The position numbers were made by a program, and so were the translations under genes. Positions 8,576-27,349 of a DNA stretch of 52,777 bases are shown one piece after another. Location of the stretch: positions 1 through 52,777 of the forward strand of contig CALUWE010000012.1 in the NCBI GenBank assembly GCA_944324425.1, read 5' to 3'. Under the pieces are notes generated by a model, which was not told the DNA's origin, did not search any database, and saw only the letters and a program-made list of their open reading frames with translations. Every line of letters starts with the position of its first letter. Position 1 is the first letter of the stretch. This stretch comes from Candidatus Gastranaerophilales bacterium. GTDB lineage: Bacteria; Cyanobacteriota; Vampirovibrionia; Gastranaerophilales; Gastranaerophilaceae.

Positions 8576-9739
8576 ATGGGTGATGAAGACAAGCAATTTG
8601 AGGCTTCTCAACAAAAGTTGAGAAAAGCAAGAAAAGAAGGGCAGGTTGTTAAATCAAAAGATTTTTCAACCGCAATTTCATTAATTGTTATGTTTTTGGT
8701 TATTTATTCTTTGGGGCCTTTTATTTGGCAGCAAATTGCAGGGCTTTTTTCAAACCTTTATGAGCAAATTCCAAATGCAAGGTTTGAAGAAATAGGTATA
8801 AAATATTTAATGTTTGTAACTTTAATTCCTACATTGCTTATTATAGTTCCCATTATTTGTCTTTCGGCTTTGGTTTCCATCATAGGCGATTTAATTCAAG
8901 TCGGGCCTTTATTTACAATGACGCCCTTAATGCCAAAACCCGATAAATTGAACCCCACTAAATATTTTAAAAACCTGATGAATCCAAAAACTTTGTTTGA
9001 GCTTGTTAAAAACATTGCAAAAGTTGTTATTTTGGGGCTTATCGGGTGGATGGTTTATATGGAACATTTCCCTGCCATTTTGGGGTTGGCTGTTGTTGAA
9101 AATGAATTTGCAACGCTTGTTGCATTCGGTAAATTAATAACGGATTTTATTCTAAAAGCGGGCATCGCCTTTTTGGTTATCGCTGCAATGGATTACGGCG
9201 TTACCAAGTGGAAATTTATGCAGGATCAAAAAATGTCTTTTAAAGAAGTTAAAGACGAATATAAAAACTCTGAAGGCGATCCTCACGTAAAAGCTGCCCT
9301 AAGGCAAAAAAGGCAGCAATTATTAAGAAAGGCAATGAAAGATTCCGTGCCTGACGCTGATTTTGTTGTTACGAACCCAATCCATGTTGCTTGTGCCATA
9401 AAGTATGACGCCCAAACTATGGAATCACCTACTTTAGTTGCAAAAGGGGCAGAGCTTTTTGCAAAGGAAATTAAAGAAATTGCAATGGCAAATGATGTCC
9501 CTGTTATTGAAAACCCGCCTGTGGCGCGTGCATTGTATCGTTTGGTTGAAGTTAATCACCAAATTCCGCCGGATTTATACAAGGCGGTTGCTGAAATATT
9601 GATTTTTGTTTACAACTCCAAAAAACAAAAACATGAAAAAATGCGCGAGCAAATTGAAGAAATGAAGAAAATTCAAGAAAAAAACGATATGGAATATTAC
9701 AAAAAAGACAATCCAAATGATGAAAATAAGGTAAACTAA
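8576..9739 (+). CDS. flhB: Flagellar export apparatus protein FlhB
   Basis: FlhB is the substrate-specificity switch of the flagellar type III export gate in the inner membrane. The 387-residue protein has the N-terminal FExSxQKLxKARKEGQ-like segment, four membrane helices between about residues 25 and 210, and a C-terminal cytoplasmic domain that self-cleaves in characterised homologues. At the cleavage site the sequence reads N267-P268-I269-H270 instead of NPTH. The following VACAIKYD, TLVAKG and NPPVARALY segments are typical. A charged tail of about 35 residues follows. A FliA-type sigma gene is next, which supports FlhB rather than a virulence-type SctU. Confidence 0.9.
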   Translation: MGDEDKQFEASQQKLRKARKEGQVVKSKDFSTAISLIVMFLVIYSLGPFIWQQIAGLFSNLYEQIPNARFEEIGIKYLMFVTLIPTLLIIVPIICLSALVSIIGDLIQVGPLFTMTPLMPKPDKLNPTKYFKNLMNPKTLFELVKNIAKVVILGLIGWMVYMEHFPAILGLAVVENEFATLVAFGKLITDFILKAGIAFLVIAAMDYGVTKWKFMQDQKMSFKEVKDEYKNSEGDPHVKAALRQKRQQLLRKAMKDSVPDADFVVTNPIHVACAIKYDAQTMESPTLVAKGAELFAKEIKEIAMANDVPVIENPPVARALYRLVEVNHQIPPDLYKAVAEILIFVYNSKKQKHEKMREQIEEMKKIQEKNDMEYYKKDNPNDENKVN

Positions 9740-9778
9740 TTCAAATAATCGGTTCTATTTGCAATTAACTCTAAAAGA

Positions 9779-9808
9779 TTGTAAAATTTACTTAAAATAC
9801 GGTATTTT
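9779..9808 (+). promoter_or_regulatory. Possible promoter of the FliA-like gene
   Basis: TTGTAA and TATTTT are separated by 18 bases in the 82-base gap after flhB, each matching 4 of 6 consensus bases. Read-through from flhB is equally likely. Confidence 0.3.
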
Positions 9809-9821
9809 ATACAAAAAAACT

Positions 9822-10502
9822 ATGACAGTGCAATCAAGATTAAAAGATTATATCGATATAATCCAAAAGGTAGCAAAAGTGGAGTACAGGAGAATTCCTT
9901 CGCATATGGTGGAATGCGAGGAATTGGTTTCCATAGGCATTATTGCTATACAAGCGCTGATTAAAAATAAATCTGATGAACAGCTGGAAAAATATAATTC
10001 CTCATACATTGCAACCGCTGTCAGATGGGCGATTAGAAACGAGCTTAGAAACAGATACAAATGGTACACATTGAAACATAAAAGTGATGATTCCGTTGAA
10101 TATGAAACAACGGGTGAAGATTCCGTTCAACAGGAAGGTGTTTCAAGCTTGGATGTTTCACCCACAAAAGTGAGAGAAGCAATTTATGAAACAATTTTAT
10201 CAATAGATTCAATAGCTTCAGCCTCATCTGATAACGATTCCCCGTTTGATTTTATCAAAGATACCCATGCAACACCTGATGAAAATGCTGAAATTACGGA
10301 ATTAGGAAGAATTATAAGAGAAGCAATCGCAAAATTGCCTCAAAAAGACAGAACCATTGTAGAATACAGGTTTTATAGGAATATGCAGGTAAAACAAATT
10401 GCACAAATGGTTGGCCTGTCAAGTTCCAGAATAACAAGGATTGTGCAGTCTTCTTTAAATACTGTCAGGGAATATCTTGAAAAAAGAGGGCTTTCATACT
10501 GA
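9822..10502 (+). CDS. fliA: FliA/sigma-28-like RNA polymerase sigma factor
   Basis: This alternative sigma factor of about 226 residues contains sigma region 2 (EELVSIGIIAIQALI, then YIATAVRWAIRNELRNRYK) and region 4 with a helix-turn-helix (VKQIAQMVGLSSSRITRIV) near the C-terminus. A low-complexity acidic linker lies between them. Its size and its place directly after flhB point to the FliA/SigD class that transcribes late flagellar genes. The ATG at 9822 is taken because the domain starts soon after it, but no Shine-Dalgarno is visible and a TTG at 9759 is an alternative. Three FliA-type promoter matches occur 12-18 kb downstream in the window. WhiG-type or other group 3 sigma roles cannot be excluded. 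Confidence 0.8.
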   Translation: MTVQSRLKDYIDIIQKVAKVEYRRIPSHMVECEELVSIGIIAIQALIKNKSDEQLEKYNSSYIATAVRWAIRNELRNRYKWYTLKHKSDDSVEYETTGEDSVQQEGVSSLDVSPTKVREAIYETILSIDSIASASSDNDSPFDFIKDTHATPDENAEITELGRIIREAIAKLPQKDRTIVEYRFYRNMQVKQIAQMVGLSSSRITRIVQSSLNTVREYLEKRGLSY

Positions 10503-21423: not shown

Positions 21424-21444
21424 TTTGTAAACAATTGTTACAAA
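21424..21444. promoter_or_regulatory. Imperfect palindrome after ftsQ, possible operator
   Basis: The core ACAATTGT (21431-21438) is flanked by TTTGTAA and TACAAA, which match as an inverted repeat with a one-base offset. It lies 4 bases upstream of the proposed sigma-28 -35 region of the next gene, a suitable place for a regulator. Confidence 0.3.
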
Positions 21445-21447
21445 TAT

Positions 21448-21474
21448 TCAATTTTTTAGAATAGTTGCCGATAT
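21448..21474 (+). promoter_or_regulatory. Putative sigma-28 (FliA-type) promoter
   Basis: TCAATTTT, 11 bases, then GCCGATAT. Against the enterobacterial FliA consensus TAAAGTTT-N11-GCCGATAA this matches 6 of 8 and 7 of 8; the -10 equals the B. subtilis SigD form exactly. A housekeeping alternative (TTGCCG-N15-TAAGAT) in the same stretch is weaker. Confidence 0.55.
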
Positions 21475-21536
21475 ATTTTGTTAGATAAGATAAGGAGATT
21501 ATTGCCCTAAAAGAGCAATAAAGTGTCACACAGTTT

Positions 21537-22469
21537 ATGATAGATTTATCGATTGATATTTCCTATTTAGCGAGATATTACGGCATTTCAACCGCAAGAA
21601 GCTTTGCTGCTCAAACAGGGCAACTTGCAAATGTAAATGGCGGAATCGAAGACGGCATGCTGACTATCGTAACAGAAGACGGCATGATAACCGTTGATGC
21701 GGCACTTTTACAAAAACTTTTACAAGAACCTGAGAAACTGGCAAAAATCTTAAAACTTCAAGACCCTGAAAACAGATATTTAATTATTCAACAATTCAAT
21801 GAAGAAGATTTGGTTAAACTTCTTCCGTTTTTAACAAGCGAACAATTGGCATTCGGGCTTCAATATTTTACGGTTGCAGGGTTAAATGAACTTTTGATTA
21901 ATCTTCCTCAGGAACAAATGGTAAATCTTTTGTTGCTGCATTTTACAATGGAAGATGTTGTGCCTTTTATGCAGCAAAATGAAATGGATGATTTCTTCCA
22001 AAGTACAGACCTTGATAAAAAAGATGTAATGGAATATTTTGAAGGCTTGGAATATGAAAAATTCCAATCTTTAATGGTGAACCAATTCGGCTATGAATAT
22101 CAAAACAAGTCTGCCAAAGAATATCTTGATAAAATTGAAAATATGGAAGACAAAGAATATAAAAGGTTCTTACTTGGCATGCAGCTTGAAGAAAAGGGCG
22201 AGATGATTGCGGGTTTATGCGAAATTAACCCTGATTATTATATGCTCTTTGATAATTCAATTTTAGCCCGCCCGATGATAAACAACCTTGAAAAAGAAGA
22301 TTTAATTAAAACAATGACAACTCTTGACCCTGAATTTTTAGTTCCGATGATTGAAGAACTTCCGAAAGATTTAATTCAAGTTGTTGCAGTTCAAATTGAC
22401 CCTAACGATTTTGCGGATATGCTCTCAAGCGAATTTCCCGATTTAATTATGGAAATGCTTGCAGGTTAA
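21537..22469 (+). CDS. Helical-repeat protein of unknown function
   Basis: The 310-residue protein has no signal peptide or membrane helix. It consists of short leucine-rich acidic helices in repeat-like units, for example EEDLVKLLPFLTSEQLAFGL, NELLINLPQEQMVNLLLLHF and a later DLIQVVAVQIDPNDFADML. This arrangement resembles the superhelical N-terminal domain of MgtE and the middle domains of FliG, but no motif proves either. The only in-frame start before an upstream stop is the ATG at 21537. AGGAG stands 40 bases upstream, and a small hairpin (ATTGC/GCAAT) lies between them. A FliA-type promoter match upstream suggests a flagellar or chemotaxis-linked role (inference). Confidence 0.7.
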   Translation: MIDLSIDISYLARYYGISTARSFAAQTGQLANVNGGIEDGMLTIVTEDGMITVDAALLQKLLQEPEKLAKILKLQDPENRYLIIQQFNEEDLVKLLPFLTSEQLAFGLQYFTVAGLNELLINLPQEQMVNLLLLHFTMEDVVPFMQQNEMDDFFQSTDLDKKDVMEYFEGLEYEKFQSLMVNQFGYEYQNKSAKEYLDKIENMEDKEYKRFLLGMQLEEKGEMIAGLCEINPDYYMLFDNSILARPMINNLEKEDLIKTMTTLDPEFLVPMIEELPKDLIQVVAVQIDPNDFADMLSSEFPDLIMEMLAG

Positions 22470-25102: not shown

Positions 25103-25678
25103 CTAGTTTTTAAGGCCTGCATAAACGGGATTTGAAGCTATTATCTTTCTTATTTCATTGCCTTGACCGTTATCTCTTGCATTTAATTTGGCAATGTAGT
25201 TTTCCCGTTTCACAAGAGGATGTTTCAGCATGACTATGGTTCTGTCTCGTCTTACAAATGCGTTCCAAGTGGAAACTTCTTTAAACCAAGCCCTTGTTTC
25301 TTCAGCTCTTGTGTTTGTCATTGTGTGGTGCTGTGATTCGTGAGCAATTAAACATGCAATTGCTTCGGACGGGGCACCTTTGTGTTCAGCGTTTATATAA
25401 ATAACAACTTTTCCTGATTGGGTTTTTGTGGTCAATGCTTCGCAATCCGAAGCGCCATAAATTGATAAATCTCTAAACATCACTCTAATGGGTTGTCCTG
25501 TTGCGTTTCTGCCTTGCAAAATTGAGATAACATCGGATTTACCTACTTGTTGAAGAGCGTTCAATGCTGCCGCAATTTCAGTATTTTTTGTAATAGCGGC
25601 AAAATCGTTAGTATGGCCAATATTGCCCGTACAGAAGATTACCGCAAATATAACAGCTATTAAAAATAATTTTCTCAT
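25103..25678 (-). CDS. Secreted zincin-like protein (HExxH motif)
   Basis: I do not recognise the family, but the 191-residue product has a signal peptide (hydrophobic residues 4-16, Cys16 within it) and an HExxH motif: H113-E114-S115-Q116-H117. Glu126 and Glu127 follow in TRAEETRAW and could provide the third zinc ligand of a gluzincin. A small secreted or envelope metallopeptidase is the best guess. No Shine-Dalgarno sequence is clear. A FliA-type promoter match lies 33-60 bases upstream of the ATG on the minus strand. It is transcribed alone, with a terminator after it. Confidence 0.7.
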   Translation of the reverse strand: MRKLFLIAVIFAVIFCTGNIGHTNDFAAITKNTEIAAALNALQQVGKSDVISILQGRNATGQPIRVMFRDLSIYGASDCEALTTKTQSGKVVIYINAEHKGAPSEAIACLIAHESQHHTMTNTRAEETRAWFKEVSTWNAFVRRDRTIVMLKHPLVKRENYIAKLNARDNGQGNEIRKIIASNPVYAGLKN

Positions 25679-25710: not shown

Positions 25711-25738
25711 AATTCGGCAGAAATTATCCAAAACTTTA
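25711..25738 (-). promoter_or_regulatory. Putative sigma-28 (FliA-type) promoter for the HExxH gene
   Basis: On the minus strand TAAAGTTT (8 of 8), 12 bases, then GCCGAATT (5 of 8, including the GCCGA core). Spacing is one base longer than the enterobacterial N11 but equals TAAA-N16 of the SigD rule. The -10 starts 33 bases upstream of the ATG at 25678. Confidence 0.5.
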
Positions 25739-26485: not shown

Positions 26486-27184
26486 CTAACCGAACGTCTT
26501 AAAGCTGCCTTCAACGTTATCATCAACAACTTTTTGAACTGAATCCATTTCGGTTGATATAGCGTTGTGTTCAGTGTCGAGTTGGTCAAGCCTCATTTCA
26601 AGCATAGCATCTCTTGATTCTGCAACGCGCATTTGTTTGTCATATTTTGCTTTTGCCGCATCGTCATCGGATTTGTCGTAAGCATGGGTTACATTGTTCA
26701 GAGCTTCAATGCTCTTTGTGTTCCATTCGCCTGTCAGTTCGTCTTTTCCTGTTGCAAAATAGAAGTTGCCTTCTTCAAGATTTCTTTGCAAAATGCTTGT
26801 GTCGTTTACATCTTCGTAGATGTAGAAGTCAGAGAGGGTTAATTTGCCGTGAGAAGCTTCAATTTGGGCGTTTCTTTCTTCCTCGGACGGTACCACAATA
26901 AGCCCGCTTGATGTTACAAGGTTCATCCCAAGGCCGCCATCCAATGTTCCTTTGGTGATTACATCATAAGAAAGGGCAACGGTTATGTTCTGGTTCGCTG
27001 TCATATCAAACACATTTGCCGTCAAGTATTGATTGCTGGTAGCTTCTTCATAAGCATCAGCAAACAATGCCATTTGATTGGTCAGCGAAACTCTTTCTTG
27101 TGAAATTTGCTGAGCTTCATATTCATTATCGGACAGTCTTGCCGTTAATGATAAAAATCTCGCTTGGCTTGCTGCAAATCCCAT
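26486..27184 (-). CDS. ASQARF-type protein, possibly flagellum-associated
   Basis: The 232-residue protein begins MGFAASQARFLSLTARLSD, then continues with a Gln/Glu-rich helix (NEYEAQQISQERVSLTNQM). The middle is an Asp/Asn-rich, less ordered part and the C-terminus a second long helix (about residues 180-222). Helices at both termini around a variable core are the layout of flagellar axial proteins, but there is no proven flagellin or hook motif, and no signal peptide. I recall this N-terminus as a recurrent family in gut Melainabacteria (memory, not searched). GGGGG lies upstream of the ATG, and a FliA-type promoter match lies 41-67 bases upstream. Confidence 0.7.
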   Translation of the reverse strand: MGFAASQARFLSLTARLSDNEYEAQQISQERVSLTNQMALFADAYEEATSNQYLTANVFDMTANQNITVALSYDVITKGTLDGGLGMNLVTSSGLIVVPSEEERNAQIEASHGKLTLSDFYIYEDVNDTSILQRNLEEGNFYFATGKDELTGEWNTKSIEALNNVTHAYDKSDDDAAKAKYDKQMRVAESRDAMLEMRLDQLDTEHNAISTEMDSVQKVVDDNVEGSFKTFG

Positions 27185-27224
27185 TGGATTTTACCCCCTT
27201 TGTTTCAAGTTCTTTATATTATTC

Positions 27225-27251
27225 ATGTCGTCAAGATTTTGAAAAACTTTA
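27225..27251 (-). promoter_or_regulatory. Putative sigma-28 (FliA-type) promoter for the ASQARF gene
   Basis: On the minus strand TAAAGTTT (8 of 8 to the FliA -35), exactly 11 bases, then GACGACAT (5 of 8 to GCCGATAA, with the central CGA kept). Transcription would start about 30 bases before the ATG at 27184 and include its GGGGG ribosome binding site. A TTGACG in the same stretch has no -10 at normal spacing. Confidence 0.55.
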
Positions 27252-27349
27252 TAAAAAACGCTCTCTTTTTGTAACAAAACTTTACAAATAAACGGAGTTA
27301 AAACCCGTTATTTTTAGAAGAAATTCTTTTTTTATGTTATTTTTTTCTT

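Follow-up and report, generated by a model that had tools for sequence, protein, structure and literature searches.

The locus considered here lies at positions 26,486 to 27,251 of a 52,777-nucleotide stretch of DNA (the window), which is contig C12 (CALUWE010000012.1) of the 1.84-Mb genome of a Candidatus Gastranaerophilales bacterium (GCA_944324425.1; G000 in our sample, hereafter the source genome). It comprises a minus-strand gene with a ribosome-binding site and a promoter of the sigma-28 (FliA) type; an inverted repeat lies further upstream (Table 1). The gene product is a member of a large protein family that had no name before and is here designated ASQARF; a 96%-identical orthologue is present in CALUYZ010000002, and the closest named relatives come from metagenome-assembled genomes (MAGs) of Gastranaerophilales. 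We consider it probable that ASQARF is a late sigma-28-class substrate of a second flagellar-type type III secretion system (T3SS), one that is non-motile and has neither filament nor stator.

ASQARF proteins share a conserved N-terminus (MG.AASQAR...LTAR) and C-terminus (...E..AI.TE.DSV.KVI..NVE.SFKTF), which in the family alignment flank a variable core ranging from about 120 to more than 600 residues among paralogues. AlphaFold (7 sequences; mean predicted local distance difference test [pLDDT] 88.9, predicted template modelling score [pTM] 0.57) predicts a hairpin of a long N-terminal helix (residues 2-49) and a C-terminal helix (residues 174-231) around a beta-rich core, and the core modelled by itself has a pLDDT of 38.8. 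An earlier reading of this DNA, made from its letters alone, had proposed helical ends around a variable core, with which model and alignment agree. It had also likened the layout to flagellar axial proteins. Foldseek/VIA searches with the full model returned generic helical hairpins only (SMC, prefoldin, p85 iSH2, colicin Ia), with none of the matches pointing clearly to an axial, needle or translocator protein. A new fold does not follow from this lack of a match. When the protein and family members were compared with Pfam, NCBIfam and PHROGs, coiled coils matched weakly and no family passed the threshold. A sequence-profile search of PDB gave nothing significant, and 30 members compared with Pfam carried no Flagellin_N or Flg_bb_rod-type signature. 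Profile-profile comparison with flagellins yielded a probability of 0.1%. The N-terminus has no hydrophobic signal peptide.

A profile built from eight members finds the family in all 146 sampled Gastranaerophilales genomes, usually in multiple copies, and in none of the 136 sampled genomes of the phylum outside the order; the sample is rich in MAGs. Matches per genome range from at least three to at least about 15, counts that split matches inflate for long members (19 matches in genome G018 represent about eight genes). The source genome has four members, C12:26486, C5:54080, C5:108331 and C5:109861 (contig and position). In G018 (L194 and L195) matches to sixteen-residue ASQARF N-termini stand alone, one of these fragments lying at the very start of a contig, which suggests assembly breaks at the repeated family termini or recombination between paralogues.

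Genes of the motility flagellum are distributed quite differently. Flagellin (PF00669) is present in 54 of the 146 genomes and missing from 92, and MotB (PF13677) is present in 52, all flagellin-positive, and missing from 94. The source genome has no match to PF00669 or PF13677, and lacks filament, hook-associated and stator genes. Because ASQARF occurs in every one of these genomes, the source genome included, it is most unlikely to be part of a motility flagellum. The sequence-only reading, which had suggested a flagellar component, had itself named the presence of the family in genomes without flagella as evidence to the contrary.

The promoter comprises TAAAGTTT at 27251-27244 and GACGACAT at 27232-27225 on the minus strand. 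Its FliA type and exact 11-base spacer had been recognised beforehand, with a distance to the ATG of 41 bases that proved to be 40. The site has the features by which we define the sigma-28 type – a TAAA(GTTT)-type -35 element, a spacer of about 11-12 bp to an 8-mer, and a GCCGATAA-like -10 element – and TAAAGTTT-N11-GNCGA occurs only five times in the 1.82 Mb (99.1%) of the genome that the genome-wide scans cover. Its -10 element agrees with GCCGATAA at five of eight positions, and better ones stand at the same site before orthologues and paralogues (GCCGAAAT at L012, GCCGATTA at L014 and ACCGATAT at C5:109795). A survey of homologues, proposed earlier as a check, showed that the motif is shared: in a set of 51 members made redundant by some close orthologues and some identical genes of the source genome, 28 score at least 13 of 16 for TAAAGTTT-N11/12-GCCGATAT within 150 bp, a score reached by 0.4% of dinucleotide shuffles. 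The sites that match lie 28-44 bp from the ATG.

When a position weight matrix (PWM) derived from other genomes only was scanned on the source genome, 26 matches reached at least 17 bits. Half of these (13) sit in intergenic DNA 15-65 bp before a gene, a setting that accounts for 1.3% of positions (binomial probability about 3e-18). These sites precede the ASQARF gene of the window and its paralogue C5:109861, the nearby gene at 25103-25678, a pair of EF-hand-like genes (C5:100891, C5:127050) and several genes for orphan proteins. In flagellated relatives, the upstream regions of nine flagellin genes (L148-L153) contain neither a sigma-28 site by the matrix nor a convincing sigma-54 consensus, which suggests, from this small sample, that sigma-28 serves the ASQARF family here and not flagellin. 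The inverted repeat upstream of the ASQARF promoter (TTTGTAAA...TTGTTACAA) is a possible regulator site; the genome contains 97 copies of TTGTWACAA where about 44 would be expected, and several of those in intergenic DNA stand before genes with sigma-28 sites.

Two sigma factors are candidates for recognising the ASQARF site. The window does encode the sigma factor that had been described as FliA-like, but at 78 bits it falls below the FliA/WhiG cut-off of 189.6, and the FliA that passes (246 bits) is encoded elsewhere, at C8:11139-11978. The divergent factor, which follows flhB, may be specific to the second export system. FliA above the cut-off is found in 56 of 60 genomes. At L023:10239-11069 (minus strand) an open reading frame (ORF) directly downstream of fliA carries a calpain-like QGNAGDCWLISGILSL motif, by eye a possible secreted protease.

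FlhA (PF00771) is matched in 146 of 146 genomes of the order, although in G045 and G122 the match is a short C-domain homologue and full-length FlhA is unproven; with the FliA count this bears out co-occurrence of the family with FlhA and FliA, the check proposed earlier having named flhB and fliA. Full-length FlhA falls into two classes, one scoring about 860-890 bits and found in flagellin-positive genomes, and the other (type-2) scoring about 715-736 bits and found in nearly all genomes. In a phylogenetic tree the type-2 and flagellar FlhA proteins of the same genomes form separate clades with support of 100/100, and both classes occur together in single genomes such as G012, G098, G133 and G088. 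Type-2 FlhA is accompanied by its own FliE, FliF, FliH, FliI and rod proteins. On contig 11 of G012 a canonical fliP-Q-R-flhB-flhA cluster lies tail to tail with a second cluster containing flhA, fliH, a gene in the fliG position, fliF, fliE, a transglycosylase gene, flgC, flgB, flgG and flgF, and the flagellin-negative genomes examined have the second cluster only. A separate 482-residue protein at L024:16173-17621 (minus strand) corresponds to the C-terminal half of FlhA only, and similar short homologues are present in most genomes of the order.

The source genome encodes the full set by which we define an export system (FlhA, FlhB, FliP, FliQ, FliR and FliI), together with rod-type proteins, FliE scoring above its cut-off and FlgB and FlgC slightly below theirs. 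Its export-gate proteins favour flagellar over injectisome models (FlhA 686 versus 586 bits, FliP 230 versus 199), and no injectisome secretin, needle or tip protein was identified. The homology annotation of short divergent parts (FliG, FliK, FlgD, FlgM) is uncertain. Four genomes from another order of the class have a single FlhA that is sister to type-2 FlhA and no ASQARF gene by the profile, which makes this lineage of FlhA older than the ASQARF family. Since the genomes keep a flagellar-type export apparatus, the notion of an export substrate is the part of the sequence-only reading that holds up better.

Members of the family are also linked to the type-2 genes. A cassette of an ASQARF gene and the genes 111035, 112029 and 112302 lies 5-6 kb from type-2 fliE-F-x-H-flhA in G001, G018, G034 and G037; it includes an unusual conserved protein of 270 residues, and the protein of 112302 (C5:112302) looks like the C-terminal helix of ASQARF with the core left out. 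The 111035 gene, present in 53 of 60 genomes and mostly single-copy, lies no more than 20 kb from type-2 flhA in all 20 genomes that have both on one listed contig, and on a separate contig in 13 others; as the genomes are related, this linkage partly reflects shared ancestry. The 111035 protein was considered as a membrane translocator and rejected, with a hydropathy maximum of 1.35 and no clear transmembrane segment.

Two further genes of the window are candidate parts of the type-2 system. The protein encoded at 25103-25678 is similar by eye to that of C2:93867, a gene adjoining type-2 genes for hook/rod-like, FliK-like and FliJ-like proteins. The MgtE_N-domain gene has a TTGTTACAA element upstream (within 21435-22469), and in G133 a homologue is located some 3 kb from fliF of the type-2 set. 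MgtE_N resembles FliG domains, so the MgtE_N protein of the window may be a C-ring part.

Table 1. Features of the window and of the type-2 system elsewhere in the source genome.
Feature	Position	Strand	Remarks
ASQARF-family protein, 232 aa	26486..27184	minus	ORF with ATG at 27184
Ribosome-binding site AAAGGGGG	27194..27201	minus	from sequence
Sigma-28 (FliA)-type promoter TAAAGTTT-N11-GACGACAT	27225..27251	minus	40 bp before ATG; PWM 20.7 bits, matrix from other genomes
Inverted-repeat element TTTGTAAAGTTTTGTTACAAAA (TTGTWACAA core)	27268..27288	none	upstream of -35; kept in close orthologues
Protein with N-terminal hydrophobic segment and HESQH motif	25103..25678	minus	by eye resembles C2:93867
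Sigma-28-type promoter of the 25103-25678 gene, TAAAGTTTTGGATAATTTCTGCCGAATT	25711..25738	minus	PWM 19.6 bits; 32 bp from start
MgtE_N-domain protein	21537..22469	plus	weak sigma-28-like site at 21448-21474
Divergent FliA/WhiG-type sigma factor	9759..10502	plus	directly after flhB; below curated cut-off
FlhB, export-gate protein of flagellar-type system	8576..9739	plus	only copy found in the source genome
FlhA, FliH, FliF, FliE, lytic transglycosylase	C17
FliN-like, FliO-position, FliP/Q/R, hook/rod-like, FliK-like, FliJ-like	C2
FlgB/C/F/G	C6
FliI	C11

Under the reading that we favour, nearly all sampled Gastranaerophilales would possess a second system made up of type-2 FlhA, FlhB, FliPQR, FliI/H/J, FliF, FliE, rod-type FlgB/C/F/G, and FliK-like and FliN-like proteins. 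Sigma-28 (FliA) would transcribe ASQARF as a late substrate, in the place taken by flagellin in motile flagella, and the export gate would recognise the N-terminal helix as its signal. The protein would then leave through the rod, its hairpin may dock or polymerise on the end of the rod to form a short shaft or tip, and the variable core may be displayed outward to the gut environment, the host or neighbouring cells.

Several observations weigh against this reading. We infer export of ASQARF proteins from the promoter, the linkage and the absence of a signal peptide, and antiparallel helix hairpins are common and no proof of an export or assembly role. Pfam, PDB, profile and fold searches reveal no sequence or structural relationship to an axial protein, needle or translocator. 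The promoter is missing from some members (tandem second copies and the C5:54080 clade), and the Pfam model detects FlgM, the usual checkpoint on sigma-28, in none of 60 genomes. Most paralogues, including the window gene, lie away from export genes, and the type-2 genes of the source genome are scattered across several contigs.

The main rival keeps the type-2 machine and lets ASQARF proteins act as soluble effectors or adhesins that it releases or delivers into cells of the host or of neighbours, with no structure built, the hairpin acting as an export or chaperone-binding module and the core carrying the activity. The many paralogues with their wide range of core lengths speak for it, as do the orphan proteins of unrelated sequence behind other sigma-28 sites (e.g. 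C5:100891 and C5:127050) and the 270-residue protein of the cassette. Yet no enzymatic or adhesive Pfam domain lies above threshold in the cores of 30 members, and conservation of both termini, including the extreme C-terminal FKTF, suggests assembly or docking beyond an N-terminal export signal. Current data fit both effector release and assembly, and we regard effector release as a possibility of rather low probability. A non-exported coiled-coil chaperone or regulator, acting in the cytoplasm for the type-2 system or another sigma-28-controlled process, would account for the generic resemblance of the termini to prefoldin- and SMC-type hairpins, but is unlikely given hypervariable cores in as many as 15 or so paralogues per genome or more, unlike housekeeping chaperones, and given late sigma-28 control, which is typical of exported flagellar proteins.

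The readings that appeal to an ordinary flagellum fare worse. The sigma-28-type promoter and helix-core-helix layout would suit a hook, rod or filament part of the motility flagellum, but the family is kept in the source genome and in about two thirds of the order without flagellin and MotB, the comparison with flagellins was negative, and the nine flagellin genes lack an ASQARF-type promoter; this we hold to be very unlikely. Equally hard to sustain, and if anything more improbable, are remnants of a decaying flagellum, as implied by literature on incomplete flagella in the order (PMC4040986). Filament, hook-associated and stator genes are indeed gone from the source genome, but the type-2 export set is intact and near-universal, its FlhA proteins form a clade of their own, and it occurs together with complete flagella in single genomes; ASQARF copy number is often high in FliC-negative genomes. 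The FlhA tree and the clusters found side by side led us to reject decay.

Among known systems, ASQARF is close to the sigma-28 class III flagellar substrates (FliC and co-expressed secreted proteins), and Campylobacter has sigma-28-dependent secreted proteins that are non-flagellar. The resemblance lies in a close late sigma-28-type promoter, presumed export through a flagellar-type gate, terminal helices and a variable middle; unlike those substrates, ASQARF has no flagellin similarity, is present without filament or motor, and is confined to one order in our sample. The type-2 system is like the filament-less flagellar basal bodies of Buchnera, whose function is unknown and which have no recognised secreted substrates (PMC8109811), in keeping export-gate, MS-ring and rod genes without a filament. 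In Gastranaerophilales, by contrast, sigma-28 is retained, there are many candidate substrates, and the system has an FlhA clade of its own and occurs alongside true flagella. Likewise, the non-flagellar T3SS or injectisome (PMC3459982) is a flagellum-derived, non-motile export machine, and type-2 shares with it candidate variable substrates, but its gate proteins score as flagellar and FlgB/C/F/G are present.

Two earlier studies count the flagellar genes of Gastranaerophilales as an incomplete or partial set (Soo et al., PMC4040986; a 2018 termite-gut study, PMC5877343), whereas here the same genes resolve into a second system with candidate cargo, also beside complete flagella. The titles and abstract openings of literature on flagella or secretion in Gastranaerophilales, Melainabacteria or Vampirovibrionia, a set with subscription journals and preprints outside its scope, describe no separate system. 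A separate secretion machine with its cargo would explain the 'incomplete flagella' retained by non-motile relatives of cyanobacteria in the gut, and would add a natural case to the debate on the relationship between flagellum and injectisome. More tentatively, and with a chance we put below even, all gut Gastranaerophilales may carry an unrecognised non-motile surface machine derived from the flagellum, with a shaft or tip of ASQARF proteins bearing diversifying cores and sigma-28 rededicated to cargo; if true, the flagellar export apparatus would have a third use in addition to the swimming flagellum and the injectisome. Members of the order are frequent in the guts of animals and humans, and a near-universal secretion system with a large set of variable proteins that may be surface-bound or secreted would matter for their interactions with hosts and neighbours.
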